Shown: one piece after another, positions 3,052-21,012 of the stretch
How positions within the stretch are numbered: the first letter of the stretch is position 1
How the letters are laid out: each line of letters begins with the position of its first letter
Source of the DNA: Bacteriovorax sp. Seq25_V
Lineage (GTDB): Bacteria > Bdellovibrionota > Bacteriovoracia > Bacteriovoracales > Bacteriovoracaceae
Length of the DNA: 64,000 nt
Direction: 5' to 3'
Assembly: GCF_000447795.1 (NCBI RefSeq)
Contig: NZ_AUNI01000021.1
Location: 350,824-414,823, forward strand
Translations under genes and position numbers: made by a program
Notes under the pieces: model-generated
What the model saw: only the letters and a program-made list of their open reading frames with translations
The model's database searches: none
What the model was told of the DNA's origin: nothing

Positions 3052-3069
3052 ATGAATGAAGGAGATTAA
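3052..3069 (+). promoter_or_regulatory. Five-codon leader ORF (MNEGD) overlapping the flagellin ribosome binding site
   Basis: ATG at 3052 follows an AGGAGG site at 3039-3044 with 7 bases between. The frame reads five codons and stops with TAA at 3067-3069, two bases before the flagellin ATG at 3072. The second flagellin's own GAAGGAGA site lies inside this mini-ORF. Translating ribosomes would therefore open or cover that site, which suggests translational coupling. That the leader is actually translated is inference. Confidence 0.4.
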
Positions 3070-3071
3070 AA

Positions 3072-6834: not shown

Positions 6835-7017
6835 ATGAAGAAGTTTATGGAATTTCTTAGAGACGAAGAAGGTCAGACATCGACAGAGTACATTCTACTC
6901 GTTGCCGTTGCGGCCATGTTAGTTTTTAAGTTCAAAAACGCAGCAGCGCCAAAAATTGATGAGTTAACTCAGAAAGTATTCGGTGAAGCTATGAATATGG
7001 ACTTTACAGGAAATTAA
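6835..7017 (+). CDS. flp: Flp/Tad major pilin
   Basis: A 60-residue prepilin. After a short charged leader (MKKFMEFLRDEEG) comes QTSTEYILLVAVAAMLVFKF, a class III-type pilin motif in which the prepilin peptidase cuts between G and Q. The conserved E-Y pair and the hydrophobic polymerisation helix follow. Flp pilins assemble into thin adhesive pili through the Tad machine. It is first in the operon, has the best ribosome binding site (TTTTAGGAGAAGTAT), and is followed by the peptidase and assembly genes, so it is probably the major subunit. Confidence 0.9.
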   Translation: MKKFMEFLRDEEGQTSTEYILLVAVAAMLVFKFKNAAAPKIDELTQKVFGEAMNMDFTGN

Positions 7018-7063
7018 GAAGAATTTTCGCTATCTAGATATAAGTTGTAGCTTCTAGTACCCT

Positions 7064-7276
7064 ATGAGTATGTTAAAACATGCTCAAGGTCAGGCGCTGC
7101 TTGAATATATTTTCGTATTTGCAATATTCTCATTGATTGCCATCAGTGCAGCGAAGGGTATTGCAATATTTTCTGAAGGATTCTTCAAAAATTTCACTTA
7201 TCATTTAACTCAAGAACTAACGACTGGTGCATGTGCTCAGGGATGTTGGCATAACGGCTACGAGAACTTGGAGTAG
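7064..7276 (+). CDS. Tad minor pilin or pseudopilin
   Basis: A 70-residue protein with the same N-terminal plan as the Flp pilin: a short basic leader, then GQALLEYIFVFAIFSLIAI, with cleavage expected between G and Q. The C-terminal part holds two cysteines (GACAQGC) that could form a disulfide, a feature missing from the first pilin. It lies 46 bases after the first pilin and three bases before the peptidase gene. The ATG at 7064 has little ribosome binding site; a second ATG two codons later is possible. Confidence 0.75.
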   Translation: MSMLKHAQGQALLEYIFVFAIFSLIAISAAKGIAIFSEGFFKNFTYHLTQELTTGACAQGCWHNGYENLE

Positions 7277-7278
7277 CG

Positions 7279-7785
7279 ATGCCATTTGTTGTCTTTGCTT
7301 ACTTAGCTGTTCAAATTCTTATCGTTGCCTATCATGATTTTCAAACGAAGAAAATTTCTAATAAATGGTCGCTGATCAATATTGGTTTCTATGTTTTCTT
7401 TACATTAATTTTTCCAGAGTATTATACATTCTCTCTAGAAACATTTATTTGGCCATTAGGATTTTTCGTAGCAGGATTTATTCTCTTCCTGATGAAGATA
7501 ATGGGAGGGGGAGATTCAAAGTATCTCGCTTCTTTCTATCTCCTCATTCCTTCTCAGTTTCATGAGCAGGCTTTCTTTTCTCTCGCAATTGCAACTGTTC
7601 TAGTTGGAGGCTCTGTATTCACTAAAAATATCATGAAGAATGCAGACCTTATTATGACTGCTTTTAAGAACAAAGACATTAAGCTCGTGAGAAGTATTTT
7701 TGGAAAGAAATTTGCTTTTGCTCCAGTTATTTTTATTTCATGGATATGGTTTGGTTGGATCATTAAGGAGAAGATATTATTTTGA
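7279..7785 (+). CDS. cpaA: Prepilin peptidase of the Tad system (A24 family)
   Basis: A 168-residue polytopic membrane aspartyl protease (TadV/CpaA). The two catalytic aspartates are visible in YHDFQTKKISN (Asp at about 20) and in GGGDSKY (GxGD motif, about residue 77). It cleaves the leaders of the Flp-type pilins at the inner membrane. There is no N-methylase domain, as usual for the short Tad peptidases. Its stop codon overlaps the next gene by four bases. Confidence 0.9.
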   Translation: MPFVVFAYLAVQILIVAYHDFQTKKISNKWSLINIGFYVFFTLIFPEYYTFSLETFIWPLGFFVAGFILFLMKIMGGGDSKYLASFYLLIPSQFHEQAFFSLAIATVLVGGSVFTKNIMKNADLIMTAFKNKDIKLVRSIFGKKFAFAPVIFISWIWFGWIIKEKILF

Positions 7786-8066
7786 ATAATCGAGGGCAAG
7801 GTACTGTTGAATATATTTTATTGCTTGTTGTTCTAGCAAGCCTTGTGAATTTTATTATCAAATCTTCAGTGATGTCTAATTTTATTGGAAGTGGTAATGG
7901 TCTCTATGACCAAATGGCCAGATCTATTGAGTTCTCATATCGTTACGGTCATAATGGTAGTGTAGATGACTTCTCAAATAATTATAACGATATTGAGTTA
8001 CATAGCTATAGGAATGAAAATGGTAAGTCACGATTCTTCGGTCCCACGTCGACGTATGATCAATAA
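7782..8066 (+). CDS. Tad pilin-like protein
   Basis: A 94-residue protein with a very short leader (MNNRG), then QGTVEYILLLVVLASLVNFII, again a G-Q-x-x-x-E-Y pilin motif. The start must be TTG at 7782: AAGGAG lies 11 bases upstream and no ATG fits. The stop codon of the peptidase overlaps it by four bases. The hydrophilic C-terminus (about 60 residues) is rich in Asn, Ser and Tyr. It probably enters the pilus as a minor subunit or a priming pseudopilin. Confidence 0.75.
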   Translation: MNNRGQGTVEYILLLVVLASLVNFIIKSSVMSNFIGSGNGLYDQMARSIEFSYRYGHNGSVDDFSNNYNDIELHSYRNENGKSRFFGPTSTYDQ

Positions 8067-8568
8067 TAAAGGTCAATCGACAGTTGAATTCTTAAGTTGC
8101 ATCACGATTGCTTTTGCATTTATCTTCTTTTTCATGAAACAGGCATTAAATTATACGAATGGCTATTTAGTTCAATATGCAACATTCATGGCTTCAAGAG
8201 CTTATTTAGTTGCTGATAATAATAATGCTAATGCTCCTCAGGTATTTAACTTTGCGGAAGTCGTAGGGAAAGAAGTATTTAACTCTTATTATCTAACAAA
8301 GTTTATGCCCAACTTTGATGGTGAAGTTAAATTTAATAGTCCTGCTGACAATGTAATTAAAGCGTTCGTTGGAGCTTATGTAACTTATACAGATAAGTTA
8401 TCGTTTACAAAAACAGTCGGTGGAAAAATTCCAATGGAATTTAGAAGTGAATCATTTCTTGGAAAAGAACCCACAAGAACAGAGTGCGCTAAAAGAGTCT
8501 GTGATGCATTAAATGTATCAGTGGGATCTTGCCAAACGCATACAACATTATTTGATAATGGATGTTAG
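8056..8568 (+). CDS. TadE-like pseudopilin
   Basis: Start chosen at ATG 8056, giving MINNKGQSTVEFLSCITIAF, a TadE-type leader with cleavage after KG and a hydrophobic helix. A longer reading from 7966 would bury the leader and is unlikely. The mature protein is ~165 residues with four cysteines near the C-terminus (CAKRVC, SCQ, NGC). It overlaps the preceding gene by 11 bases without a clear ribosome binding site, so it is probably translated by coupling. Confidence 0.75.
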   Translation: MINNKGQSTVEFLSCITIAFAFIFFFMKQALNYTNGYLVQYATFMASRAYLVADNNNANAPQVFNFAEVVGKEVFNSYYLTKFMPNFDGEVKFNSPADNVIKAFVGAYVTYTDKLSFTKTVGGKIPMEFRSESFLGKEPTRTECAKRVCDALNVSVGSCQTHTTLFDNGC

Positions 8569-9092
8569 TCGTGAAAGATTTTTTTAAAAAAATTAAGGAG
8601 AATGAAGAAGGACAGGCTATGTTTGAGCTTGTTCTTTTTGTACCAATAATGGTCTACCTAGGTGGATTGATCATGAATTTTGGAAACTCTATTAATGCAT
8701 CAATAAATCAACAAAAAGCAACAAGAGGTTATTCTTATTATCTTTTAAATGGAAACTCTAATGGGCTAGCAGATCGCGAACTTAAGCAATTACCAAATCT
8801 AAGTATTGTGAGTAACAACATCATTGGTTGGAGATTTCAGGAAGAGGGAAATGGAAGTATTTCCTTTGGTTCTTTTTATCGACTACCAAATGTGCCTTTT
8901 GCTGGAAGTGATGCGGAAGATTGTCTTGAGAAATATTCAGAAAACCAGACTTCTTGTATCAAGATATTTACTCTCTATGGGGTATGCGGAGAGACCTACG
9001 CTCGTATGGCCACTGACAACTCATTTTTTCGTGTTGATTACCCTGGTAACTCTGTCGGATATTCATCTAAGTCGATTTGTGCCTTTAAGTAG
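8562..9092 (+). CDS. TadE/TadF-like pseudopilin
   Basis: About 176 residues. The N-terminus has a charged leader ending in NEEGQ, then AMFELVLFVPIMVYLGGLIM, matching the TadE/TadF pattern (EG-x-A-x-x-E). The remainder is periplasmic, with four cysteines (EDCLEKYSENQTSC, YGVC, SIC). It overlaps the upstream gene by seven bases; GTG at 8571 is an alternative start that would shorten it by three residues. A 90-base gap with a promoter-like element follows, so this may end the pilin half of the locus. Confidence 0.75.
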   Translation: MLVVKDFFKKIKENEEGQAMFELVLFVPIMVYLGGLIMNFGNSINASINQQKATRGYSYYLLNGNSNGLADRELKQLPNLSIVSNNIIGWRFQEEGNGSISFGSFYRLPNVPFAGSDAEDCLEKYSENQTSCIKIFTLYGVCGETYARMATDNSFFRVDYPGNSVGYSSKSICAFK

Positions 9093-9131
9093 TAGGTAGC
9101 GGCTCTTTTTACCTAGTCATCTAAGCTTCGT

Positions 9132-9158
9132 TAAAGTTTGATAAAATGCTAATGATAA
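9132..9158 (+). promoter_or_regulatory. Sigma-28-like promoter upstream of cpaB
   Basis: TAAAGTTT at 9132-9139, an 11-base spacer, then AATGATAA at 9151-9158. The -35 box is perfect and the spacing exact; the -10 box matches five of eight bases (GATAA). Confidence 0.4.
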
Positions 9159-9182
9159 TAACATCTTAAATAAGGTTTGAAG

Positions 9183-9989
9183 ATGAATACTAGAGCATTT
9201 ACCTTAGCACTCGTCATCGCAATTTTTGCAATGTTCATGGTCCATACATATGTTGAAGATCAAAAAACTGAATTAGTAAAAAGATATGGTTCAATGACAT
9301 CTGTTATTGTAGCCAAAAAAGATATTGGAGAGTTTGAATTAATTGATGATTCAAAAGTGACAATCATTTCTGTTCCGCAAAGATTTGTATCTCCTGGAAG
9401 CTTTAAAACAATGAAGGAAGTAGAGAATACAATTGCAACTGTTCCAATTTTAAAAGATGAGCAAATAACAAAACCAAGAATTACATATCCAGGTGAGAGT
9501 ACGGGTCTTTCAAGAGAAGTATCCGTAAATAAACGTGCCGTTTCAATTACTGTTTCGGATCAAACTTCAGTTTCAAAACTTATCAAACCAGGGGATAGGG
9601 TTGATGTTCTAGCAGCTATTGATTACTCGGGTAGAAGAGATAGACAAAAAATTATGACAATCCTTCAAGACGTTAGAGTTTTATCAACAGGGAGAAATAT
9701 ATCAAATAATCTTCCGGTAATTGGTGTACAAACTCCTAAAGTAATTAAGCAGATGAAGCTAAACACATATAGTAATTACAACTCTGTAACATTAGAGCTA
9801 GATCCATTCGAAGTACAAAAGTTAATTTGGTTATATCAATATGGAGAAAGTACTCCTTACTTAATTCTTAGAAATATTAATGACAAGGAAAAAGTTCGTA
9901 TTGAAGGAACTAGACTCTACGACATTCTTGGAGAAAAAGATCAAGTTGAAGCTAAGAAATTCTTCCAAGATAAATATGAGAAACGATGA
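9183..9989 (+). CDS. cpaB: CpaB/RcpC, periplasmic Tad assembly protein
   Basis: A 268-residue protein with an N-terminal membrane anchor (residues 6-24), then a SAF domain (VIVAKKDIGEFELIDDSKVTI ... VPILKDEQITKPRI) and a CpaB-type C-terminal domain (SVSKLIKPGDRVDVLAAID). CpaB/RcpC helps gate or stabilise the outer-membrane secretin. Start chosen at ATG 9183, seven bases after TAAGG; an in-frame TTG at 9177 is less likely. Its stop overlaps the secretin start (ATGA). Confidence 0.9.
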   Translation: MNTRAFTLALVIAIFAMFMVHTYVEDQKTELVKRYGSMTSVIVAKKDIGEFELIDDSKVTIISVPQRFVSPGSFKTMKEVENTIATVPILKDEQITKPRITYPGESTGLSREVSVNKRAVSITVSDQTSVSKLIKPGDRVDVLAAIDYSGRRDRQKIMTILQDVRVLSTGRNISNNLPVIGVQTPKVIKQMKLNTYSNYNSVTLELDPFEVQKLIWLYQYGESTPYLILRNINDKEKVRIEGTRLYDILGEKDQVEAKKFFQDKYEKR

Positions 9990-11473
9990 TTATAAAAAAC
10001 TTATTTAAATTATTATTTATGACAATTCTCTGCTTCTCAAGTGTCGCTCAACTGACGCCAAAGGAGGAGAGAATTGAAATTTTTATGGGAATCGATAAAG
10101 TAATCCGTCTGGATTTCGTACCGACAACGATAAAAGAAATTGCCGATAATACAGTTGTTGATATGACGTTTGTTCCTCAGAAAAGAGAGATTACAATAAA
10201 AGGTTTAAAACCCGGAGTCTCTTCAATATCTGTAAGAAATGATGCCACAAAAGATATTGCGATTAGATATTTTGTTACTGTAACAGCGACTGAGAAAACA
10301 AAAGTTATCAACGAACTTAAAGATTTTTTCAGTGATATTGAAGGGGTTGAGGTTGGAATCAAAGGTGGGAAGGTTTATGTCGGTGGTCGCCTAGTTGTTC
10401 CAAGTGATATTGGTAAGGTTGTTTTGTTTTTAGATGACTATAAAGATGTGTTGAATCTTCTCGAAGTATCGCCGCAAACATACCAGATCATTGCAAAAGA
10501 AATGCAAGAAGGTATGAGAAGAAATAATCTTAAAGATGTGACTGTGAGATTTTTTAATAACTCATATATTCTCGAGGGAATTGTTGGTTCAGAAAAAGAG
10601 AAAGAGCTTGCAACAAAGATTGGAATTACTTACTTACCAGATAGAATTGAAAGTTTAGCGAGAAGAACAGATTCTGTTCAAAAGCTTGAACAAGAAATTA
10701 TCAAAAACTTCATTGTTGTCAATGAAACGGAACCACCGCCTAAGCCAGTGAAGATGATTAAGTTCACTGCTCAGTTTGTCGAGTTAACAAAAGACTATAG
10801 CAAAGTTTTTGGGTTTAAATGGAATCCAACACTTGGTGGAGAAGGTGGAAGTATTTCTTTTGGTCGTACTTCATCGGGTGGAGTATCTACAAGTTCAGAT
10901 GGGACTCTCTCTGGAACTATTTCACAGCTATTCCCAAAATTAAACTCAGCTAAAGCAGCTGGTTATGCCAGAATCGTTCAGTCAGGGATGATTATTGCAA
11001 AAGATAATGAGAATGGAACAATTACAAGAAAGACCAAAAAGAACACAACTCTTGGGACTGGAGAGTTTCAACAACCAACATCAATTGATGCCGGGTTTGA
11101 TTTAAAGCTCAAAGGTACAATCATGCCAGAGGAGAAAGTTAATATCGAAATTTCACTCGGTGTAAGTTTTGGATCAGGAACAGATGTATTAGAAAATACC
11201 ATTAACACAATTATTATCGTTAAGACGCGAGAGTCGGCAGTCGTCGGTGGAGTGTCATCGACAAAGTCATCAACACAATTTGATAAAGATCCTCCTGGTG
11301 GAGCAGATACAGTAGAGGCCGGAACTGGATTCCCGTTATTCTCATTTATTAAGTCGAAATCACTACAAAGAAGTAAGGAGCAATTCGTTGTCTTTATTAC
11401 GCCAGAAATTATCGACAGTGCATCACAAGGGTCTGAAGAAATTAAACGAAAGTTTAGAAAGAGGGGACAATAA
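9986..11473 (+). CDS. cpaC: CpaC/RcpA Tad secretin
   Basis: A 495-residue outer-membrane secretin. The signal peptide (about residues 1-22, ending SSVAQ) is followed by an N-terminal pilus-formation domain (about 25-110), a BON-like stretch (about 115-200) and the secretin domain (about 250-490). The secretin signature ESAVVGGVSS and the closing FPLFSFIKSKSLQRSKEQFVVFITPEI are present. Secretins form the ring through which the pilus leaves the cell. Translation is coupled to cpaB (4-base overlap) and to the next gene (1-base overlap, TAATG). Confidence 0.93.
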   Translation: MIIKNLFKLLFMTILCFSSVAQLTPKEERIEIFMGIDKVIRLDFVPTTIKEIADNTVVDMTFVPQKREITIKGLKPGVSSISVRNDATKDIAIRYFVTVTATEKTKVINELKDFFSDIEGVEVGIKGGKVYVGGRLVVPSDIGKVVLFLDDYKDVLNLLEVSPQTYQIIAKEMQEGMRRNNLKDVTVRFFNNSYILEGIVGSEKEKELATKIGITYLPDRIESLARRTDSVQKLEQEIIKNFIVVNETEPPPKPVKMIKFTAQFVELTKDYSKVFGFKWNPTLGGEGGSISFGRTSSGGVSTSSDGTLSGTISQLFPKLNSAKAAGYARIVQSGMIIAKDNENGTITRKTKKNTTLGTGEFQQPTSIDAGFDLKLKGTIMPEEKVNIEISLGVSFGSGTDVLENTINTIIIVKTRESAVVGGVSSTKSSTQFDKDPPGGADTVEAGTGFPLFSFIKSKSLQRSKEQFVVFITPEIIDSASQGSEEIKRKFRKRGQ

Positions 11474-13707
11474 TGGCCGAAGGTCATATCATTACAGTAA
11501 TTGGTGCTAAAGGCGGGGTTGGTAAATCTCAAGTCGCGGCTAACTTAGCATTTTCCCTTGTGGCGGAGTCGAGAGGTAAAACGTTACTTTTAGATTTTGA
11601 CCAACGAGCAAGTGGTGATCAAAATTTAATTACTGGTATTAAAACTAAAAAGAATATGAAAGATCTCTTCACTTTTAGTGGAAATATTGATCCTCGAACC
11701 ATTACACCTTTTTTAAATCCACATCCGGCAGGTGTAAATTATATTGGGCTTCCAAACGATCCGACAGCTACAGATGGTCTTGATTCAGAAGCAGCTGGGA
11801 AGTACTTAAAAGCCTTTACTTCGCTTTTCCCGATTACTGTTATCGATGGTGGTAGTGAATTAACTCCATTAACTTTAAAGGCATTAGAATTCTCAACGAT
11901 GATCCTCGTTGTTGTTACTCCAGACTTATTGGCTTTAAATCAAACAAAGCGTTTGATGTCTGATTTAGTAACAATGATGTTTCCAAAAGAAATGATTCAT
12001 TTTGTAATGAATCAAGCACAGAAAGGACACCCTGTTACTCCTGATGTTGTTCAAAAAACACTCGGGCGTCCACTTCTAGGAACGATTATAAAAGATGATC
12101 AAACGTGTGCAATGGCGCTTAACCAGAGAAAGCCAGCACTTGTTGCACTAAAGAATAGTAACTTCTCAAAAGGTATTACAGAGGTTGCAAGAAAAATTAT
12201 TCAGTCAAATATTTTAAAACAGCTCGCTACACTTAATAGACCAAGCGGAGTATCTGTTAATAAGGGCGGTGGAGACTCTGCTGCTGGAGCACCTTCTAAA
12301 GGGGCTGCGAATGCGTGGCGTGACCTTAAGATTAGAATTCACAAAAGTCTTGTTGAAGAAATGGACCTTAGTGATGATGATAAGAATGATCCGAAAGCAA
12401 AAATTATTTTAAAAGAGAAAACTAAGAAGTTAGTTGTCGATCTTCTCGGTAAAGAAGATACAAAAGGAATTCTAAATTCTCGTGAAGATATGAATGCGAT
12501 TGTGAAGGAAATTATCGATGAGGCCCTAGGATTAGGTCCTCTTGAAGATTTACTTGCAGATAGAACTGTTTCTGAAATTATGGTTGTTGGACCAGATAAA
12601 ATCTATTTTGAGAAAAGTGGAAAGATCAAGAAGTCAGAAGTTATTTTTACTAATGATAGGCAAGTTTTAAATGTTATTGAAAGAATCGTTGCTCCGATTG
12701 GTAGAAGGATTGATGAAAAGACTCCTTACGTAGATGCACGTCTACATGATGGTTCGAGAGTTCATGCAATTATACCTCCGTCTGCTATTGATGGATGTTG
12801 TATTACTATCAGAAAGTTTCCTGAAGATCGATTAACGTATAAAGACCTCGTTAAATTCGGATCAATGACACAAAATATGGCTGACTTTCTTCGTATTGCA
12901 GTTGAAGGGCATCGAAATATTATCGTTTCAGGGGGAACAGGATCTGGTAAGACAACACTGATTAATGTTCTTGGAAGTTTTATCCAAGCTAATGAGCGTA
13001 TTATTACATGTGAAGACTCTGCCGAGCTAAACTTTCCTCAAGATCACGTTGTCCGTTTAGAGACGAGACCTCCTTCATTAGAAGGAGATGGTGAAATCGA
13101 TATTAGGCTTCTTGTTAAGCAGTGTCTTCGTATGAGGCCAGATCGTATCGTTGTCGGTGAGTGTCGTGGTGGTGAAACACTTGATATGTTACAGGCGATG
13201 GGTACTGGTCACGATGGTTCATTGACAACAGTTCACTCGAATAATCCAAGAGAATGTATCGGTCGTATTGAGACTCTCGTTCAATATGCAGGTGCTGGAC
13301 TTACCCCTAAAGCTATTCGTGAGATGATTGCATCGGCTGTTCACCTAATCATTCAGCAGCAAAGACTAGATGACGGTTCGAGAAGAGTTACTCACATCAC
13401 AGAAATTGGTGGTATCCAAGGTGAAGTCGTTACACTACAAGATATTTTCCTTTTTGTTCAAAAGGGTATTGATAAGAATGGAAAGATTATCGGTGAATTT
13501 CAAGCGACAGGATTTATTCCAAAATTTATCGAAACACTTGAAAAGAAAGGTTACAACGTGCCTCGTGGATTATTTAGTAATTCTTCTCCACCTAACCCTG
13601 CCGCAAGACCTGCGGCTCCGCAAGCTGGGGGAGCACCTAAACCTGGACAACCACCTCAAGGTAATCGTCCTCAACGTCCTCCTGGTAAGCCAGTTAAGAA
13701 AGAGTAG
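11473..13707 (+). CDS. cpaF: CpaE (MinD-like)-CpaF (TadA ATPase) fusion
   Basis: A 744-residue fusion. Residues 1-~255 are a ParA/MinD-type P-loop ATPase (GAKGGVGKSQVAANLA at about 11-26; LLLDFDQ), corresponding to CpaE/TadZ, which places the Tad machine in the cell. After a Gly/Ala-rich linker (~255-278) comes the secretion ATPase CpaF/TadA: Walker A GGTGSGKTT at ~486, the Asp box, Walker B RPDRIVVGECRGGE and the His box TGHDGSLTTVHSNN. A proline-rich tail (~703-744) ends the protein. CpaF hexamers power pilus assembly from the cytoplasmic face. Usually CpaE and CpaF are separate genes. The frame is uninterrupted, so the fusion appears genuine. Start ATG 11473 overlaps the secretin stop. Confidence 0.93.
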   Translation: MAEGHIITVIGAKGGVGKSQVAANLAFSLVAESRGKTLLLDFDQRASGDQNLITGIKTKKNMKDLFTFSGNIDPRTITPFLNPHPAGVNYIGLPNDPTATDGLDSEAAGKYLKAFTSLFPITVIDGGSELTPLTLKALEFSTMILVVVTPDLLALNQTKRLMSDLVTMMFPKEMIHFVMNQAQKGHPVTPDVVQKTLGRPLLGTIIKDDQTCAMALNQRKPALVALKNSNFSKGITEVARKIIQSNILKQLATLNRPSGVSVNKGGGDSAAGAPSKGAANAWRDLKIRIHKSLVEEMDLSDDDKNDPKAKIILKEKTKKLVVDLLGKEDTKGILNSREDMNAIVKEIIDEALGLGPLEDLLADRTVSEIMVVGPDKIYFEKSGKIKKSEVIFTNDRQVLNVIERIVAPIGRRIDEKTPYVDARLHDGSRVHAIIPPSAIDGCCITIRKFPEDRLTYKDLVKFGSMTQNMADFLRIAVEGHRNIIVSGGTGSGKTTLINVLGSFIQANERIITCEDSAELNFPQDHVVRLETRPPSLEGDGEIDIRLLVKQCLRMRPDRIVVGECRGGETLDMLQAMGTGHDGSLTTVHSNNPRECIGRIETLVQYAGAGLTPKAIREMIASAVHLIIQQQRLDDGSRRVTHITEIGGIQGEVVTLQDIFLFVQKGIDKNGKIIGEFQATGFIPKFIETLEKKGYNVPRGLFSNSSPPNPAARPAAPQAGGAPKPGQPPQGNRPQRPPGKPVKKE

Positions 13708-13714
13708 GTGATAG

Positions 13715-14605
13715 ATGTCATTTTTTCTAAGTTTAATTGGATTTAAAGGTTTAGTAGCTCTAATCGGAGTTATTCTTTTTTCATTTTGCTATAAGTATTC
13801 CGTGGGTATCTTTGATTTTATCGAAAGACAAACCATGGGGACGCGAACCTATATCTTAGAAAAATTTGATTTACTTTTTATTGAAGTCCAACCAGAAAAA
13901 ATAACATACGCATTACTCGCCTTATCCTTAGGTTCAGGGGGAATTGTTATTATTATTTTTGGTATTCTTGGAAAGTGGGTAATGGGCTTTATTCTAGGGC
14001 TTGTTTTCGCCTTTGTTGGATTTAAAATACCTCGTCCTATTATAAATAATCTCGTTTCTAAAAGAGTTAAACAATATGAAGCGCAAATGGTTGATGGGCT
14101 AACCCTTCTTGCCAATGGCCTTCGTGCGGGACTAAGTGTGCCACAGTCAATTGGCATGGTTGTCGATGAAATGCCGGCACCGTTATCACAAGAATTTAAT
14201 GTTATGCTACAGCAAAATAGAATCGGTGTGCCACTAGAAGAATGTTTCGAAAACCTCGCCAAAAGGGTTCCAACCCAAGATAATGACATGTTTGTGAGCT
14301 CTGTAAATATTCTTAGAGAGACCGGTGGTAATCTCGCAGAGGTCTTCGATACTATTGTTGACGTAATTAGAGAACGTGTACGATTGAAGCAAAAAATTGA
14401 TACTGCTACTGCTCAAGGGCGTTTTCAGGGTATGATTATGGCAGCTATGCCCTACGGAATTTTAATGATGTATGGATCAAGTGATCCTGAGGCCGTTGGA
14501 AAAATGTTTAGCCATCCCCTTGGAATCATATTGTTTGTGGTCGCCACAGTACTTGATTTTATTGGAACTATGGTAATTTTTAAGATTGTACAGATTAAAG
14601 ATTAA
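13715..14605 (+). CDS. tadB: TadB-type inner-membrane platform protein (T2SSF domain)
   Basis: A 296-residue membrane protein with helices near residues 8-25, 65-105, 240-258 and 270-290, and a type II secretion F domain between (QMVDGLTLLANGLRAGLSVPQSI ... VSSVNILRETGGNLAEVFDTI). TadB and TadC normally work as a pair to anchor the ATPase. Here no TadC follows; the next gene is unrelated. Either this protein acts alone or TadC is elsewhere. It begins seven bases after cpaF. Confidence 0.9.
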   Translation: MSFFLSLIGFKGLVALIGVILFSFCYKYSVGIFDFIERQTMGTRTYILEKFDLLFIEVQPEKITYALLALSLGSGGIVIIIFGILGKWVMGFILGLVFAFVGFKIPRPIINNLVSKRVKQYEAQMVDGLTLLANGLRAGLSVPQSIGMVVDEMPAPLSQEFNVMLQQNRIGVPLEECFENLAKRVPTQDNDMFVSSVNILRETGGNLAEVFDTIVDVIRERVRLKQKIDTATAQGRFQGMIMAAMPYGILMMYGSSDPEAVGKMFSHPLGIILFVVATVLDFIGTMVIFKIVQIKD

Positions 14606-14629: not shown

Positions 14630-14672
14630 GTGAACAGAGAACTCGGAAAGTCATACGAAAGGATTGTGAGTG

Positions 14673-16298
14673 ATGAAGAATTTTAAATTTTTTGTACTTT
14701 TAAGTATTTTTGCAACAAGCGCTCTCGCAGGCGTTAATTTAAAGAATGGTAACTTCCATATCACTTATACTGATATTGTTGTTCCTGGTGGTGGGCATGA
14801 CCTCGTTATTGAGAGAACCTACAACTCTAGATCACCAGATAAAGGCTGGTTTGGTTTTGGTTGGGGATCTGACTACGAAACTTATTTGAATGTATCAGCA
14901 GATGGTTCTGTTGTTATTCATGAGAATGGTTCAGGTGCTACAACTAGGTTTGTTCCTAACAAGGCCGTAGATGCTGAAGCTGCTGCAAAGAAAATTATCG
15001 ATGCTATGAGAAAGAAAAACTCTATCTCTGAATCAGTGGCAAGCTCTTTAGTAACAAAACTAAAGAATGATGCTGAGCTTAGACAAGCGTATGCAAAGAG
15101 ATTTGATGTTTCAGCAAAACTCGCTGTTGGAACTGAGCTTTTCTCAAACGAAAGAGGGCTTCAGAAAGTTGTAAAGACTAAAGACGGTTACTCTAGAAAG
15201 TATAACGATGGTAAAGAGCACCTTTTCAATGAAGATGGAAAGCTTGTTAAAGTTACTGACAAGAATGGGTATGTTGTTGATTTAAACTACTCAGGAAAAG
15301 AACTTAAATCTATTAAAGATTCAATGGCGAAACAAATTTTCTTCCAGTGGTACCCAGATGGAAAAATCAAGTCTGCTGAGTCGGGTGCAGGAAAGAAAAC
15401 AGAATACGTTTATAAAGATGATAATTTAATCGAAGCCAAAGATATTGCTGGTAACGTATTTAAGTATGACTATGACTACAATCACAATATGACTTCTATT
15501 GGATACAAAGATGGTTCTTCAATGAAGATCAAGTATACAAAGAAGACGCAGTTTGTAGAGGAAGTGACTAAGAAGAATGGTGAGACAGTTGCTTATCAAT
15601 ATGAGTCAAACCCTAAGAATCCTGAATTTCACTACTGGACACTTGTTACAAAGAAAAACCCAGGTGGTAAAGATGTAACAAATCGTTATGAGTATGAAAT
15701 TAAAAGAAAGCCAGATGGTTCACACTATACATATAGAATTCTTACTGTTGTAAATAATGTATCGACTGAAACAATCTATACAGAGTGTTGTTCTCTTCCA
15801 AAACAAATTAAAAGAGGAAACTTCGTAACTAACTTTGAATACAATAGCAAAGGTCTATTAGTTAAGAAAAACTCTTCTCGTGGTGATTATGTTGAACTCA
15901 AGTATCACCCAGAATTTAACAAGATTACAAATGTAACAAATAATAATGGTTGGACTAAGTTTGAGTACGATAAAAAAGGTAACTTAAAGAGAGCAGAAAA
16001 CTCTAAGAAAATGTCAGTTCTTTTAACATATGATTCAAAAGGTAGAATCTCTAATATGTATGACATTGATAAGACTACTAATAAGAAACGTGAGCTTAGC
16101 TTCGTATACAATGCACAAGGTAAGCCAGTAGAAATTAAAATGAGTAATGTTGGGAAAATCAATGTGAAGTATGACAACTACGGTGAGATTTTAAAAGTTG
16201 AATCTGCAGCTGGGCATAAAATGGCATTACAAGTTACTCAGGCGTTCCAATCATTACTATCAATCGTTAAACCTGCAGGTGTTAACTTAAATATGTAA
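14673..16298 (+). CDS. Secreted YD-repeat (RHS-like) protein without toxin domain
   Basis: A 541-residue protein with a signal peptide (MKNFKFFVLLSIFATSALA). The first ~55 mature residues, with VPGGGHDLVIERTYNSRS and KGWFGFGWGSDYETYL, match the N-terminal domain found at the front of RHS/YD-repeat proteins. After an Ala/Lys-rich helical insert (~95-150) come about ten YD-type repeats (for example YNDGKEHLFNEDGKLVKVTD; FEYDKKGNLKRAENS). It lacks the RHS core motif and any C-terminal toxin, and is far shorter than polymorphic toxins. It is probably a surface or secreted carbohydrate-binding structural protein. ATG 14673 was chosen over GTG 14670; AGGA lies nine bases before. The promoter looks sigma-28 dependent. 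Confidence 0.8.
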   Translation: MKNFKFFVLLSIFATSALAGVNLKNGNFHITYTDIVVPGGGHDLVIERTYNSRSPDKGWFGFGWGSDYETYLNVSADGSVVIHENGSGATTRFVPNKAVDAEAAAKKIIDAMRKKNSISESVASSLVTKLKNDAELRQAYAKRFDVSAKLAVGTELFSNERGLQKVVKTKDGYSRKYNDGKEHLFNEDGKLVKVTDKNGYVVDLNYSGKELKSIKDSMAKQIFFQWYPDGKIKSAESGAGKKTEYVYKDDNLIEAKDIAGNVFKYDYDYNHNMTSIGYKDGSSMKIKYTKKTQFVEEVTKKNGETVAYQYESNPKNPEFHYWTLVTKKNPGGKDVTNRYEYEIKRKPDGSHYTYRILTVVNNVSTETIYTECCSLPKQIKRGNFVTNFEYNSKGLLVKKNSSRGDYVELKYHPEFNKITNVTNNNGWTKFEYDKKGNLKRAENSKKMSVLLTYDSKGRISNMYDIDKTTNKKRELSFVYNAQGKPVEIKMSNVGKINVKYDNYGEILKVESAAGHKMALQVTQAFQSLLSIVKPAGVNLNM

Positions 16299-16401: not shown

Positions 16402-16599
16402 ATGAAAAAGATATTATTAATGATGACTATATTGAGTACTTTAAATATTGTAAATGCTGCAGAAGGCGCTAAGGTTGGTGAAGGTGCTGGAAGTTGTGAT
16501 GATGTTGTAAACTGCGCCAGTGGTAACTGTAAATCTACTACAGCTTCAGATAGTTCGGAGAAAAAGGATGAAGCGACGTCTAAAGGTAAATCAAAATAA
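16402..16599 (+). CDS. Small secreted cysteine-containing protein, 65 residues
   Basis: The signal peptide (MKKILLMMTILSTLNIVNA) is followed by a ~46-residue mature part with three cysteines in a short block (SCDDVVNCASGNCKS) and a hydrophilic tail ending in lysines. A perfect AAGGAGATTAAA ribosome binding site and a strong terminator show it is a real single-gene unit. Function unknown. It shares size and plan with the proteins at 16851 and 20483, but lacks the sigma-54 promoter they carry. Confidence 0.75.
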   Translation: MKKILLMMTILSTLNIVNAAEGAKVGEGAGSCDDVVNCASGNCKSTTASDSSEKKDEATSKGKSK

Positions 16600-16655: not shown

Positions 16656-16700
16656 ATTTCAGAATGCCTAAAATAAAATCAATCAGCCGTTTCTGTACAT

Positions 16701-16730
16701 TTTATACACACTGTCGAATATTTATACACA
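16701..16730 (+). promoter_or_regulatory. Direct repeat TTTATACACA, candidate activator site
   Basis: TTTATACACA occurs at 16701-16710 and again at 16721-16730, exactly 20 bases apart, with CTGTCGAATA between. It lies about 60-90 bases upstream of a sigma-54-type promoter, where an enhancer-binding activator would sit. A related TTATACACTGTC sequence (inverted) lies upstream of the gene at 20483. Confidence 0.5.
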
Positions 16731-16789
16731 ATAGTAATAACTAAAAGGCTTTAAGTTGTTAATAAGAGGTGGAGTACCTTAACTCCAAA

Positions 16790-16806
16790 TTGGCACGTGC
16801 TGTGCA
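16790..16806 (+). promoter_or_regulatory. Sigma-54 promoter of the small secreted protein at 16851
   Basis: TTGGCACGTGCTGTGCA has GG at 16792-16793 and GC at 16804-16805, the obligatory 12-base phase. TGGCACG is a perfect -24 element; the -12 element GTGCA differs from TTGCA by one base. Confidence 0.8.
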
Positions 16807-16850
16807 ATATATAAAACAAACAACTAACCATTAATATCTAGGGGGATATG

Positions 16851-17033
16851 ATGAAAGCTTTAATTTTAACAGTATTAGTATTAGGAAGTGTATCAAACGT
16901 ATTTGCAATGTCAGAAGAGTCTGAAACAAGTTGTGAGAAGACAGTTCACGTGAGCGCTTATCAAGAAAGTGTTCCTGCTGGTGAAGTAAGAAAAGAAGCT
17001 GAAGCAGGCAAGAAAGAAGCAACAAGAAAATAG
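16851..17033 (+). CDS. Small secreted protein, 60 residues
   Basis: The signal peptide (MKALILTVLVLGSVSNVFA) is followed by a ~41-residue mature peptide with one cysteine (SEESETSCEKTV), a Ser/Tyr/Gln segment and a highly charged Lys/Glu/Arg-rich end. The start at 16851 is five bases after GGGGG; ATG 16848 is too close. It lies behind a sigma-54-type promoter and before a strong terminator, so it is a single-gene unit under dedicated control. It is weakly similar to the protein at 20483 around the signal-peptide end (NVFA, then SE-S). Function unknown; a single cysteine suggests dimerisation or attachment. Confidence 0.75.
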   Translation: MKALILTVLVLGSVSNVFAMSEESETSCEKTVHVSAYQESVPAGEVRKEAEAGKKEATRK

Positions 17034-17045
17034 AATTAATATCGA

Positions 17046-17069
17046 GGGCCACACTAGTGGCCCTTTTTT
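17046..17069 (+). terminator. Rho-independent terminator
   Basis: GGGCCAC/GTGGCCC stem with an ACTA loop and six T residues, directly after the small-protein stop codon. Confidence 0.92.
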
Positions 17070-17070
17070 A

Positions 17071-17121
17071 TTTCCTGTAAATTACATATACCCTATAATG
17101 AAAGAAAACTTAGGGGTATAT
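17071..17121 (+). promoter_or_regulatory. Promoter and 8-bp inverted repeat before the aldehyde dehydrogenase
   Basis: TTTCCT (17071-17076), 17 bases, TATAAT (17094-17099). A perfect inverted repeat ATATACCC (17086-17093) / GGGTATAT (17114-17121) flanks the -10 box and start site; the right arm also covers the ribosome binding site. This is a plausible repressor operator. Confidence 0.55.
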
Positions 17122-17124
17122 TTC

Positions 17125-18486
17125 ATGCAAGATATCAATCAGTACTATCAAGACGTCACAGCTACGCAGAATAACTTTAAAGACATTTCAAAGCGCTTGG
17201 TAGCTCTAGAAAAGCTTAAAAGCTCAATAACTGAAATGAGTAGTGAAATTGCAGATGCTCTTAGAAAAGATCTTGGGAAGTGTGAGTTTGAATCTTATCT
17301 TTCGGAGATCGATTTTGTTCTACATGAGATTGATGTTGCTAAGAAAAATATTAAAAAGTGGTCAAAACCTAAGAGGGTTAGTTCTTCTTTAGCCTTCTTC
17401 CCTGTGAAAAGTTATATTGTTCCTGAGCCTTATGGAACAGTTCTCATTATTGGCCCATGGAATTATCCATTTCAGTTGGTTCTTGCCCCTTTGGTTGGTG
17501 CAATCGCAGCTGGAAATACCTCCATTATAAAGCCATCTGAAATGGCGCCACAGACCTCGAAAGTTATAACAGAGCTTATTAATAAAACATTTAGCAAAGA
17601 AGTAAAGTGTGTTGAAGGAGGTGTCCCGGAGACTACTGAACTTCTAGATTTAAAATTCGATTATATTTTCTATACTGGTAATGGTGTGGTTGCGAGAATC
17701 ATAATGGAGAAGGCCTCGAAATTTCTTACACCTTTAACCCTTGAGTTAGGAGGGAAAAGTCCATGTATGATTTTTACTGCAAATCTAAACCTCGCTGCAA
17801 AGAGAGTTGTGTGGGGGAAGTTCTTCAATGCGGGACAAACCTGTGTAGCTCCTGATTATATTATGATTCAGGAAAAAGATAAAAATTCATTTATTAATGA
17901 GATGAAGAAATGGATTGAGTTTTTCTATACAAGTGAAGTTAAGTCTAGTCCGAATTATGGGCGAATAATCAATGAGAGACACTTTGATCGCTTAACTAAA
18001 TATTTAAGCGAGGCGAAGGTACTTCTTGGTGGGGGGCATGAGAGAGAGTCTTTGTTTCTTGAGCCAACGGTTGTAGAGGGTGATTTAAATCACGCAATTA
18101 TGAAAGAAGAAATATTCGGACCGATACTGCCAATAGTAATCGTAAAAGACTATGAAGAGGCGCGTGATTACGTCCTTAAGAATGATAAGCCGCTTGCTAG
18201 CTATGGCTTCTTTGATCGTGAAGAAGATAAATCTAAATTTGTTAAAGAAATTTCATCTGGTGGGATGGTAATTAATGATACATTGATTCACCTGTCTAAT
18301 GAAAAACTTCCGTTTGGTGGTGTTGGCGAAAGTGGGATGGGGGCTTATCATGGAGCTTACTCATTTGATATTTTTAGCCATAAAAAAGCATTGATGAAGA
18401 GAAGTTTTATGTTTGAAAACTCTTTGCGTTATCCTCCTTATGAAGGAAAACTTAATCTTATTAGAAATATTATGAAGTACCTTTAA
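17125..18486 (+). CDS. Aldehyde dehydrogenase (ALDH3-like)
   Basis: A 453-residue NAD(P)-dependent aldehyde dehydrogenase that oxidises aldehydes to acids. Visible are the cofactor/oxyanion region PWNYPFQLVLAPLVGAIAAGN, the general-base glutamate in LELGGKSP, the catalytic cysteine in FFNAGQTCVAPDY and the closing block PFGGVGESGMGAYHG. Length and the C-terminal extension (YPPY) resemble the ALDH3 fatty-aldehyde class. Start chosen at ATG 17125, eight bases after AGGGG; the upstream ATG at 17098 overlaps the promoter -10 box. It is joined to a glycosyltransferase by a one-base overlap. Substrate unknown; medium or long-chain aldehydes are likely. Confidence 0.93.
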   Translation: MQDINQYYQDVTATQNNFKDISKRLVALEKLKSSITEMSSEIADALRKDLGKCEFESYLSEIDFVLHEIDVAKKNIKKWSKPKRVSSSLAFFPVKSYIVPEPYGTVLIIGPWNYPFQLVLAPLVGAIAAGNTSIIKPSEMAPQTSKVITELINKTFSKEVKCVEGGVPETTELLDLKFDYIFYTGNGVVARIIMEKASKFLTPLTLELGGKSPCMIFTANLNLAAKRVVWGKFFNAGQTCVAPDYIMIQEKDKNSFINEMKKWIEFFYTSEVKSSPNYGRIINERHFDRLTKYLSEAKVLLGGGHERESLFLEPTVVEGDLNHAIMKEEIFGPILPIVIVKDYEEARDYVLKNDKPLASYGFFDREEDKSKFVKEISSGGMVINDTLIHLSNEKLPFGGVGESGMGAYHGAYSFDIFSHKKALMKRSFMFENSLRYPPYEGKLNLIRNIMKYL

Positions 18487-19325
18487 TGCCGAAAATCAGT
18501 GTTATCATACCTACTTATAATCGCTCGTTGTTCTTAGCTCGAGCGATTGATTCTGTTTTAAGTCAAACCTATAAAGACTATGAACTTATTATTGTTGATG
18601 ATGGCTCAACTGATAATACTGAGTTCGTTGTACAACCATACTTAGAGGCTAATGAGAAGATAAAATTCTTGAAGACTGATAACAATGGGGTAAGTCATGC
18701 TCGAAATTATGGATTTAAGAATTCTCTTGGTGAATGGGTTGCATTTCTCGACTCTGATGATCAATGGTTACCAAATAAATTAGAGAAACAAATCCAAAAA
18801 GCTAATGATTTACCAGAGTCACTTATTATCTACACTGATGAGAAGTGGATAAGAAATGGAAAATTCGTAAATAAGAAAAAGTATCATCAGAAGTATGGGG
18901 GAAATGTTTTTGCCGAATGCCTGAAGTCATGCTTTATTGGACCTAGTACGGTGTTACTAAAGAGAGAGTTATTAGAACAGTATGCTGGATTTGATGAAAA
19001 TTTTCCTGTTTGTGAGGATTACGATCTTTGGTTAAAAGTATCCCTACATCATGATGTTGTATTAATTCCAGAGGAACTGGTAGAGAAATATGGTGGGCAT
19101 GATGATCAACTATCTACAACAACTCTTGCCATGGATTTTTGGCGAGTTAAGGCGATTTGCAATTTGATGGATAATTATGAGCTTGATAGTGAGCAATCAA
19201 GGAAAGCAATTGAAGTACTAAAAGTGAAGAGTGATATTCTTTTAAATGGTTATAGGAAACATGGAAATATAAAAGATTATAATGAACTAAATGATCTGAT
19301 TAAGAGTAAAATTAAAGGCCCATAA
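18486..19325 (+). CDS. Family 2 glycosyltransferase
   Basis: A 279-residue GT-A fold transferase. The N-terminus MPKISVIIPTYNRSLFLARA, the UDP-binding VDDGSTDNT, and the metal-binding DSDD in AFLDSDDQW are canonical, and the ExxD-like region CEDYDLWLKVS lies at about residue 178. It transfers a sugar from a nucleotide donor, probably to a lipid-linked or surface acceptor. It is cotranscribed with the aldehyde dehydrogenase (overlapping TAATG), an unusual partner. No membrane segment is visible. Confidence 0.92.
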   Translation: MPKISVIIPTYNRSLFLARAIDSVLSQTYKDYELIIVDDGSTDNTEFVVQPYLEANEKIKFLKTDNNGVSHARNYGFKNSLGEWVAFLDSDDQWLPNKLEKQIQKANDLPESLIIYTDEKWIRNGKFVNKKKYHQKYGGNVFAECLKSCFIGPSTVLLKRELLEQYAGFDENFPVCEDYDLWLKVSLHHDVVLIPEELVEKYGGHDDQLSTTTLAMDFWRVKAICNLMDNYELDSEQSRKAIEVLKVKSDILLNGYRKHGNIKDYNELNDLIKSKIKGP

Positions 19326-19333
19326 GGGCCTTT
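19314..19333. terminator. Bidirectional terminator between convergent genes
   Basis: AAAGGCCC/GGGCCTTT with an ATAA loop; it overlaps the glycosyltransferase stop and lies two bases beyond the stop of the opposite gene. T-rich sequence follows on the plus side. Confidence 0.75.
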
Positions 19334-19334
19334 G

Positions 19335-20282
19335 TTATTTTACACAGTAATATGAATACTCTTTTGCGTTGATAGAGCGAGGAGATCTTACTGGACTTGG
19401 GTTCATTAAACCTGGGTGATAAACCATTCCACCACTGATTGCCCAAACTCGACGTCCAATTGACACACCACCATTCCAATCTCCAAAAGCATCTATTGCT
19501 TCAAGTTCATCTGCACTTGGTAATCTTGCTCCTCTATTTTTACATGCGCTCTCAGCTTGTCTCATGCTAGTTGCTTTACCTATAGTGCCATTGTGAGTCC
19601 CTACGAGTTGTAGACTTCTCCCATTGATAAAAAGAGTGTTTGGAAATTTAGTTCCTTGAAAGTCTTCGAAGATTCGTGATGCGATTTGTGACATTACTAC
19701 GCTTGGGGAACCTATGGCTTGATATGAAGACGTGTTTCCATTGTTATCAACCATAGTTAAAGTAACTTGAATATTTCCTTTGCAGTTCGGTGCAAATGAA
19801 TATGTTCCGTAAGCAATATAATCAACAAGAGAATAAGAGTCAGCTGGGACATAACCAGTTCTTCTATCATTGCTGGCATTATTGATAATTGTTCTAATAT
19901 CATTCATATGACGAAATTGAAATTTACGATCAGAGACGGGGTAGCTTCTATAGTAACCATCAAGATAACCTTTAAGAGAATTCTCCAGTGTTACGTCGAG
20001 ATACTTATGTTGAGTTGCAAGATAAAGATTTTTATCATACATGGCATCGAAGGTTTGAAGCATTTGTAGAGCTTCTTTTCCTTTGGCCCCTGCCTGCATA
20101 AGATCAGAGGCAAGCCCAACCATATCTTGCATATATTCATAACGAGTTTGTGAATATGCTTGTTTATAAGCGCAAAGATCAGCCCCTCGAATAAATGGGA
20201 TTGAGGCCCACATTGTTTGAGATTTTGCTTGAACTACAGATGTTAGTGCAAGAATTGCGACAAGATACTTAATTAGTTTCAT
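19335..20282 (-). CDS. Secreted protein with C-terminal DUF1566/lectin-like region
   Basis: A 315-residue protein with a signal peptide (MKLIKYLVAILALTSVVQA). The middle has no motif I know. The C-terminal ~75 residues, with RQAESACKNRGARLPSADEL then an Ala-Phe-Gly-Asp-Trp region and VWAISGG, resemble the DUF1566/Lcl or formylglycine-enzyme-like fold often found in surface proteins. The start at 20282 is preceded by TAGGAGTTTATCT on the minus strand; an upstream extension is unlikely. It diverges from the small secreted protein at 20483, and the shared gap holds the TTATACACTGTC-type motif pointing toward this gene. Confidence 0.7.
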   Translation of the reverse strand: MKLIKYLVAILALTSVVQAKSQTMWASIPFIRGADLCAYKQAYSQTRYEYMQDMVGLASDLMQAGAKGKEALQMLQTFDAMYDKNLYLATQHKYLDVTLENSLKGYLDGYYRSYPVSDRKFQFRHMNDIRTIINNASNDRRTGYVPADSYSLVDYIAYGTYSFAPNCKGNIQVTLTMVDNNGNTSSYQAIGSPSVVMSQIASRIFEDFQGTKFPNTLFINGRSLQLVGTHNGTIGKATSMRQAESACKNRGARLPSADELEAIDAFGDWNGGVSIGRRVWAISGGMVYHPGLMNPSPVRSPRSINAKEYSYYCVK

Positions 20283-20341
20283 AGATAAACTCCTAATAGA
20301 TATTTCTACTGTAGCTGAAATAAGATTAAGGACTATGAAAG

Positions 20342-20385
20342 GTGTAAACAATACAGAGGTGTCAAAAGATTAGACAGTGTATAAG
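20342..20385. promoter_or_regulatory. Candidate activator site related to the one at 16701
   Basis: On the minus strand this reads TTATACACTGTCTAAT, then TTTGACACC and GTTTACACC. The first block closely matches TTATACACACTGTCGAAT at 16702-16719. It lies about 50-95 bases upstream of the sigma-54-type promoter at 20434. Confidence 0.45.
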
Positions 20386-20433
20386 AAGCAATCAGTAATA
20401 GGGAGGTAAGTAATTGATTTAATGAAGTATGAG

Positions 20434-20450
20434 TTGGCATGACCTGTGCA
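20434..20450 (+). promoter_or_regulatory. Sigma-54 promoter of the small secreted protein at 20483
   Basis: TTGGCATGACCTGTGCA carries GG (20436-20437) and GC (20448-20449) in the required 12-base phase. It differs from the element at 16790 mainly in the spacer and one -24 base. Confidence 0.72.
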
Positions 20451-20482
20451 TTAATTTTAGTAATACTAATTGGGGGTTTAAA

Positions 20483-20677
20483 ATGAAAAAATTATTACTA
20501 GTTCTACTATTAACAACTAATGTTTTCGCAATCAGTGAATCAAACACAGATCAGGGTACAGACACACAATGTCTACATAAAGGCTATTATAAAGAAATGG
20601 CAGAGATTGATCAGATGCTTGCTAATAGTAATAAAGAAGAATCTAAGGCCGTTGAACCAACGACATTAAGGCGTTAA
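20483..20677 (+). CDS. Small secreted protein, 64 residues
   Basis: The signal peptide (MKKLLLVLLLTTNVFA) is followed by a ~48-residue mature peptide with one cysteine (TDTQCLHKGYYKEM), an acidic helical middle and a basic end (TLRR). Start chosen at ATG 20483, behind GGGGGTTTAAA; the longer reading from 20429 would cover the sigma-54 promoter. It shares with 16851-17033 the promoter type, the GGGGG binding site, size, a single cysteine and charged tail. The stop codon overlaps that of the oppositely directed gene. Function unknown. Confidence 0.75.
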   Translation: MKKLLLVLLLTTNVFAISESNTDQGTDTQCLHKGYYKEMAEIDQMLANSNKEESKAVEPTTLRR

Positions 20678-21012
20678 TTAGACTCTTGCTTAAGAACGTT
20701 TAAAATAGCTTCTTTCTCTTCTTTTGTGTAATTGTCTTTTGGCAGTTTTGCTTCGATAGACTTCTTTACGCTAGAGAGATTGGTGAGAATTTTATCTTGC
20801 TTAGCAGAAGTATTATTAAACATCTTTGATGTGACTTCTTTAGTTTCTTTTAGACCATTAGTAAAAACCCCTTTTACGGTGCTAAATACTTTAGAAGTCA
20901 TTGGTTTTGCAATTTGATCCATATAGCTGAATACAACTTTATCTTCTCCTACTGGGATACTTAGGATTAAGAAAGATAAACAAAAATAAAAAGCAAATTT
21001 AATAACGAACAT
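20674..21012 (-). CDS. Hypothetical protein with N-terminal membrane/signal segment
   Basis: A 112-residue protein. A hydrophobic N-terminus (FVIKFAFYFCLSFLILSIPV) acts as a signal or anchor; the rest is a Lys/Glu/Thr-rich, probably helical periplasmic region (LKETKEVTSKMFNNTSAKQD). I recognise no family. It is directly coupled to the response regulator upstream (TAATG overlap at 21012), suggesting a shared pathway. Confidence 0.6.
   Translation of the reverse strand: MFVIKFAFYFCLSFLILSIPVGEDKVVFSYMDQIAKPMTSKVFSTVKGVFTNGLKETKEVTSKMFNNTSAKQDKILTNLSSVKKSIEAKLPKDNYTKEEKEAILNVLKQESN

Follow-up and report, generated by a model that had tools for sequence, protein, structure and literature searches.

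The two genes described here lie in a 64,000-nucleotide (nt) stretch of the genome of Bacteriovorax sp. Seq25_V (contig NZ_AUNI01000021.1, positions 350,824 to 414,823), the whole of which is called the window, at the locus known in Bdellovibrio as the hit locus. Each encodes a microprotein with a signal-peptide-like start and is preceded by a sigma-54-type promoter element and by a 17-bp palindrome. The genes were delimited by open reading frames (ORFs) and alignment, the promoter elements by pattern searches of the window and its genome, and the palindromes by dyad analysis, as follows:

16694..16710, no strand assigned, upstream palindrome 1, TGTACATTTTATACACA
16712..16728, no strand assigned, upstream palindrome 2, TGTCGAATATTTATACA, 18 bp after palindrome 1
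16790..16806, plus strand, sigma-54-type –24/–12 element TTGGCACGTGCTGTGCA
16848..17033, plus strand, microprotein gene 1, encoding 60 or 61 residues with a predicted signal peptide and a single mature cysteine
20360..20376, no strand assigned, upstream palindrome of gene 2, TGTCAAAAGATTAGACA, with a weak second site 18 bp further
20434..20450, plus strand, sigma-54-type –24/–12 element TTGGCATGACCTGTGCA
20483..20677, plus strand, microprotein gene 2, encoding 64 residues with a start that by eye resembles a signal peptide and a single mature cysteine

A first-pass annotation had placed two secreted proteins of ~60 residues here, and both were found, the first with a possible start at 16848 (ATGATG) and with a hairpin and a T run 3΄ of the gene; our signal-peptide rule did not flag gene 2. 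Because statistics within the window were thin, we examined its own genome (G000, 3.45 Mb) and those of relatives, and because searches with single protein sequences found nearly no relatives of the microproteins, synteny was used for the family. Among five scanned genomes of the same genus, relatives of protein 1 were detected in G001, G003 and G004 and relatives of protein 2 in G001, G003 and G005 (E 0.011 or better); G002 yielded no convincing relative of either in this search. A scan with the window's RHS protein, encoded upstream of gene 1, gave 17 named contigs, 13 of which contained after the RHS gene one or two secreted-looking ORFs of 58–98 residues, each with a sigma-54-type site scoring at least 20.2; the two-gene spacing of ~1.8 kb was also seen in L052, L056, L059, L060 and L064. 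In a second family, the Bdellovibrionaceae, an RHS profile search matched 59 of 61 genomes, and a single-cysteine ORF lay behind a sigma-54-type site in 29 of the 30 loci analyzed (27 at first, then L142 and L145), with the first microprotein start 429–618 nt after the RHS stop and a second microprotein ORF in six loci.

We also applied a mechanical rule (a signal-peptide-like ORF of 45–110 residues with a sigma-54 site scoring at least 20, located 42–90 nt before the ATG), which was shaped on these hit loci and overlooks some members, window gene 2 included. Applied to both strands of hit-locus contigs totaling 1,008,214 bases, it gave 57 matches, every one such a gene, and it gave one more in the window; the control contigs, which surround activator and related genes and total 1,013,816 bases, contained 0 matches. 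The 29 Bacteriovorax-type members that were aligned (alignment A2, from which two of L053 were left out) have little in common apart from a signal peptide and a single mature cysteine, the latter occurring in 29/29, as the first-pass annotation had described for the window pair; their mature parts are small, charged and fast-evolving. These comparisons support the existence of a real family of small, presumably exported proteins. Longer microproteins (87 and 98 residues) occur in L061 (12218–13096), where they have a common N-terminal insert following the signal peptide.

The exact pattern TTGGCAYG-N4-GTGCA was found in the window only at TTGGCACGTGCTGTGCA and TTGGCATGACCTGTGCA, the two positions at which sigma-54-type promoters had been proposed; when two mismatches were allowed, the window contained 3 matches versus 1.35 expected, which is not striking. 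Across G000, TGGCAYN6TGCW was found at 49 places versus 4 for the reversed control pattern, and TTGGCAYGN4GTGCA with up to two mismatches at 83 versus 27 for the control; the former comparison (49 versus 4) therefore indicates a real set of sigma-54-type promoters. In all six same-genus relatives (from G001, G003, G004 and G005), a GG-N10-GC sigma-54-type site is located 49–61 nt before the ATG. GG and GC are 10 bases apart, as in TGGCAY-N5-TTGCW, and GTGC or ATGC often replaces TTGC as the last element. The GGGGG ribosome-binding site noted by the first-pass annotation is real and recurs in L052, L053 and L068, although most relatives have GGAGG, AGGAG or similar sequences. On these patterns, the microprotein promoters very probably belong to the sigma-54 class. 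An RpoN-like gene, bd0843, is described for Bdellovibrio HD100 (PMC3464611), and the literature has noted that sigma-54 often serves the exterior of the cell (PMC3162934).

The upstream motif had been described as direct repeats before one gene and inverted repeats before the other. As a unit, its 14-base form TTATACACACTGTC is close to the chance level in the window (9 matches with up to 3 mismatches, against 5.68 expected), and the palindrome was adopted instead: TTATACACACTGTC (16702–16715) joins the right half of a 17-bp palindrome to the left half of the one after it, so that the motif stands as part of a conserved palindrome, and what had been described as direct and inverted repeats corresponds to tandem and single palindromes. 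For the dyad test, pairs of trinucleotides with 0–20 bases between them were counted in 31 promoters (from the window, four same-genus genomes, L056–L065, L067 and L068, picked after the locus survey), and the 60 commonest were compared with shuffled sequences. TGT-N11-ACA showed the largest excess of the dyads tested, occurring in 18/31 promoters versus 0.90 expected (maximum of 3 in 50 shuffles); other TGT/ACA spacings were near chance, with N13 slightly above (5 versus 0.74). The consensus of this Bacteriovorax-type palindrome is TGTCtAAAnTTTAgACA. By our own count, 13/31 promoters have their two best sites 17–18 bp apart, mostly at about –74 and –56 counted from the start of the –24 element.

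For the Bdellovibrionaceae, we used 33 of 35 promoter rows, having dropped two frames that overlap a counted gene and have five cysteines each; the genes of L142 and L145, found later, are outside this set. The form TGTCTCA-N3-TGAGACA, with at least 11 of 14 letters matched, occurs in 22/33 promoters (0.15 expected), and TGT-N11-ACA in 14/33 (0.62 expected). Shuffling kept dinucleotides in both TGT-N11-ACA tests and in the matrix test described below, and single letters in the 11-of-14 test and in the tests upstream of activator genes. By itself, the palindrome is not enriched genome-wide (TGTNNANNNNNTNNACA at 110 places per strand versus 119 for the control), and it is thus informative only beside sigma-54 sites. 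Spacings of 21–23 nt between palindrome and –24 element were seen for 12 promoters at 11 loci (L131, L132, L133, L135, L141, L143, L152, L153, L155, L156 and L159).

A palindrome upstream of a –24/–12 promoter is also the arrangement of NtrC/NifA-type enhancer sites. The NtrC site has a 17-bp geometry, like the palindrome here, and the NifA site reads TGT-N10-ACA; the palindrome here differs from both in its letters, TGTC...GACA with N11. A NifA-type site was considered and rejected, since TGT-N10-ACA occurs in 2/31 promoters, compared with 18/31 for N11, and is not enriched. We regard the palindrome, with fair confidence, as the site of the activator.

We then scanned the 47 other sigma-54 sites of G000 with a matrix derived from 11 sites in other genera. 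Scores of at least 8 were obtained for 11 of the 47 (0.70 expected, maximum of 4 in 200 shuffles); the exact dyad gave a modest excess at the same promoters (6 versus 1.07, maximum of 5 in 100 shuffles), and the claim accordingly rests on the weighted matrix. Seven of the genes behind these 11 sites encode secreted proteins by rule, and L122 and L089 are secreted-looking by eye; the set includes a subtilase (L095), an Lnb_N-domain protein (L122), a protein with a hydrophobic start and a WYL domain (L100) and a DAHP-synthase/chorismate-mutase (L110). Further copies of promoter plus motif thus exist in the genome, and both elements are conserved within the genus, in the named contigs and in the Bdellovibrionaceae. 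The proposal of a regulon dedicated to tiny proteins did not hold, because the palindrome precedes 11/47 other sites, including those of several larger exported proteins. Outside the hit locus, a tiny secreted ORF of 49 residues with two cysteines, a sigma-54-type site and the palindrome was noted at ~1500 of L109 (G000:C15:154713).

As candidates for the activator, we considered the five G000 proteins with a GAFTGA loop. Three form reciprocal-best pairs with proteins of an HD100-like genome (G074), namely L073/L190, L074/L193 and L075/L194, and an 11-of-14 palindrome is located upstream of both members only in L075/L194 (random DNA would contain one in 2.5–3% of such stretches):

G000:C10:14907-16475, L075, single-copy AAA+/Fis-type helix-turn-helix (HTH) protein with a weak PocR match (Pfam)
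G074 141137-142690, L194, orthologue of L075

Both contain an AAA+ domain (PF00158), a lid (PF25601) and a Fis-type HTH (PF02954), with GAFTGA in L075 and GSFTGA in L194; at their N-termini, PocR (PF10114) remained below the cut-off (17.8 and 15.8 bits, respectively, versus 23.9). Among the L075 matches (38 relatives scanned), 19/30 have a palindrome within 220 nt upstream, and among the L194 orthologues 21/30 (of 40) have one within 260 nt, with 0.85 expected in each case; 12 of the latter 21 are nearer the TGTCTCA form. These tests keep partial matches (among them L216, L226, L232, L284 and L293), so that part of their upstream DNA is coding, and the start of L291 was placed by hand. We infer autoregulation by L075 through binding to the palindrome, and an L075-type protein is probably the activator of the microprotein promoters; the first-pass idea of one activator common to both promoters appears likely. 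A different activator of the L074 or L073 type might instead drive the promoters, with the L075/L194 gene merely a further target, since an upstream site marks a gene as a target and not its product as the binder, and L073 of G000 also has one upstream 11-of-14 site. We consider this rather unlikely: the L075/L194 sites occur in two families, often in each family's own form, and they are without a nearby sigma-54 element, which fits self-repression better than activation from outside.

The surroundings of the microprotein genes were annotated with Pfam and ORF scans, other members of the pilus cluster being named by sequence only:

6835..14605, plus strand, Tad (Flp-type) pilus gene cluster
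6835-7017, plus strand, Flp1-like pilin (PF16982, below cut-off)
9986-11473, plus strand, secretin (PF00263)
11473-13707, plus strand, CbiA/T2SSE fusion protein, TadZ-TadA-like (PF01656 with PF00437)
13715-14605, plus strand, T2SSF protein, TadB/C-like (PF00482)
14670..16298, plus strand, secreted protein with RHS/YD repeats and DUF6531, corresponding to Bd0109 in position and family (PF05593, E 1.1e-16; PF20148, E 3.8e-15)
16402..16599, plus strand, secreted ORF of 65 residues with three cysteines, in the position of Bd0108 and without a credible sigma-54 site

In the Bdellovibrio hit locus, bd0109 (RHS) and bd0108 adjoin Tad genes (PMC3818213, PMC4267844), and the same order (Tad genes, then the RHS protein, then a small secreted protein) was met in the window; gene order and domain matches thus place the window genes at the hit locus of a predator taken to be of the marine Bacteriovorax/Halobacteriovorax type. 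The ORF 16402–16599 is directly 3΄ of the RHS gene, and its sole sigma-54-like match (16311, score 19.2) is inside a GGGCACT/AGTGCCC hairpin. By rule, a small secreted ORF without a strong sigma-54 site adjoins the RHS gene in 13/18 cases (the window and the 17 contigs). In the Bdellovibrionaceae, a Bd0108-like frame begins 8–17 nt past the RHS stop in 28/30 loci and also in L142; that of L157 is short, and CxxC occurs in 24/28 of the frames collected by rule.

Bd0108 is itself a small exported cysteine protein beside the Bd0109 RHS protein and Tad genes (PMC3818213, PMC4267844), and it may have a short stretch after the cysteine in common with the microproteins. However, Bd0108-like frames closely follow the RHS stop, have no sigma-54 site and mostly contain CxxC, whereas the microproteins have one cysteine and their own sigma-54-type promoter, and are without the N-terminal part of Bd0108. 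In Bacteriovorax marinus SJ, two small genes with putative signal peptides, BMS_0183 and BMS_0184, are located beside a Bd0109 homologue; the passage concerned calls them unlike Bd0108 and describes no promoter or family (PMC4267844). They are probably genes of the same kind as those of the microproteins.

The G074 locus matches all six HD100 primers tried (20/20 letters each), and the published coordinates fit; G074 is therefore taken to be HD100, where the corresponding features are as follows:

96873-97178, minus strand, Bd0108 frame, 101 codons
96743-96759, minus strand, sigma-54 site, predicted transcript start ~96732
96483-96683, minus strand, microprotein frame, 66 codons

Capeness et al. 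(2013; PMC3818213) described here a "small non-coding RNA" of 261 bp (96455–96716), in a section that does not state its strand; they found its level to be raised in bd0108 mutants relative to HD100 and HID2, and proposed a small RNA pathway. Both of their primers for reverse-transcription PCR (RT-PCR) of this RNA fall within the microprotein frame. Between a pair of close relatives, changes affect 15 of 42.7 synonymous sites versus 3 of 155.3 other sites of the frame, and three further pairs differ by 12 versus 1, 15 versus 0 and 3 versus 0 such changes. This distribution shows purifying selection on the predicted frame in HD100 relatives, and the frame is very likely to be coding, rather than RNA only. 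Because the frame covers the RNA, the primers are inside it and the differences are nearly all synonymous, the hit-locus RNA is likely a messenger. The reading frame as such is not new, since a 95% identical protein is already public as a B. bacteriovorus hypothetical protein or lipoprotein; searches confined to an open-access library returned no description of the microprotein family, of the promoter or of the equivalence between frame and hit-locus RNA. The microprotein as an attack-phase gene of HD100 was considered and dropped, as Table 2 of PMC3627812 contains no attack-phase small RNA near 96 kb. The neighboring Tad operon is controlled by FliA, as are attack-phase genes of Bdellovibrio (PMC3627812, PMC5430801); the microproteins differ in having sigma-54-type promoters, and the HD100 RNA is low in attack phase.

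The first-pass annotation had suggested possible roles in surface change, prey contact or signalling; the surroundings at the hit locus, together with the published transcript levels of HD100, suggest a link to the pilus and growth-switch system. We propose, with slightly better than even confidence, that the microproteins behind sigma-54-type promoters and palindromes at the hit locus are switched on by a single enhancer-binding protein that regulates its own gene, and that they serve as the RHS protein's conditional partners in a pilus-to-growth signal. Sigma-54 polymerase would wait at the microprotein promoter, whose elements are present in the DNA and whose activity is presumed. An activator of the L075/L194 type would bind the palindromes and fire once its sensory part is triggered. 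The published RNA levels suggest that this trigger may rise without Bd0108, the circuit being held down while Bd0108 works. Finally, the constant linkage and a short profile match weakly suggest that the exported protein, a switched counterpart of the Bd0108 whose gene is cotranscribed with bd0109, might bind the RHS protein or the pilus machinery; partnership with the RHS protein is a tentative suggestion that we hold at below even confidence.

Alternatively, the microproteins may go outside the cell as signals or prey-directed factors unrelated to the RHS protein, with the locus providing only common timing. Their small, charged and fast-evolving mature parts would suit such a role, and other palindrome-bearing promoters serve exported proteins, including the subtilase; the placement beside the RHS and Bd0108-position genes is invariant, however, and the published transcript level tracks bd0108 status (PMC3818213), which makes this alternative doubtful. 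It is more improbable that the transcript functions in the way published for HD100, as a small regulatory RNA, with the frame incidental or secondary. The RNA-seq and RT-PCR signal was published as non-coding RNA (PMC3818213) and a dual-function RNA is possible, but a frame with a signal peptide and a single cysteine is present in 29/30 loci, a ribosome-site-like sequence precedes the ATG, and changes concentrate on third codon positions in four pairs (15/18, 12/13, 15/15 and 3/3). Chance matches to loose consensus patterns, to which the weak counts within the window alone might be ascribed, have a negligible probability given 57 versus 0 matches in equal amounts of DNA, 49 versus 4 promoter patterns and conservation across genera.

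Several observations weigh against the proposed circuit of sigma-54-switched microproteins. Four of the 17 named contigs (L066, L069, L071 and L072) and one of the 30 Bdellovibrionaceae loci (L144) are without microprotein genes. RpoN was not seen in a motif scan of partial G000 stretches, as such coverage would lead one to expect, and no search aimed at RpoN was made in G000. The palindrome is absent from 11/33 Bdellovibrionaceae promoters at the 11-of-14 threshold, and in 12/33 it is merely 21–23 nt before the –24 element, which is unusually close for an enhancer; a role in repression is also conceivable at this spacing. The sigma-54 pattern stands out less clearly in the HD100-like genome (46 versus 19), where few sites besides the hit-locus one carry the palindrome (30 of 46 examined); for these reasons, no HD100 regulon is claimed. 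The L074 control gave an upstream palindrome in 1/29 (0.61 expected; L261, a partial match, left out), and it is weak because the DNA upstream of L074 in G000 is coding. The microproteins lack CxxC and the conserved N-terminal part of Bd0108, and the match between the Bd0108-like and microprotein profiles covers 20 columns past the signal peptide (P 0.0047 versus 0.92 for the reversed profile) with a low probability of 7.5%.

The switch between prey-dependent and prey-independent growth in predatory bacteria is a long-standing question linked to the hit locus. This locus gains a deeply conserved protein gene, and a published regulatory RNA is recast as likely protein-coding, differing from the earlier description in having a conserved frame and a sigma-54-type promoter at the same place; the messenger reading would link the microprotein to the switch between the two modes of growth. 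The analysis also puts forward a class of promoter, a sequence for the operator and one candidate for the activator, all testable in laboratory Bdellovibrio strains. In the furthest form of the proposal, which we regard as speculative and quite unlikely to hold in full, the hit-locus RNA is a messenger, a sigma-54-switched peptide and not the RNA signals Bd0108 loss for prey-free growth, and the same peptide–RHS–pilus circuit would operate in Bdellovibrio-like lineages with the locus.

Some neighboring genes of the window were also noted. In the product of 11473–13707, a MinD/ParA-like (CbiA) domain and a T2SSE ATPase are joined in a single protein, a TadZ-TadA-like fusion, and a tandem pair of flagellin-like genes (1951–3908, named from sequence) is located upstream of the Tad genes. 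Two of the genes noted lie between the microprotein genes, and a third, for a receiver protein, lies near gene 2; receiver-like frames also occur close to this place in L057 and L059:

17098..18486, plus strand, aldehyde-dehydrogenase-like gene (named from sequence, no Pfam run)
19335-20282, minus strand, secreted-looking protein of 315 residues with zero Pfam matches
21012-21431, minus strand, stand-alone response-regulator receiver protein near microprotein gene 2

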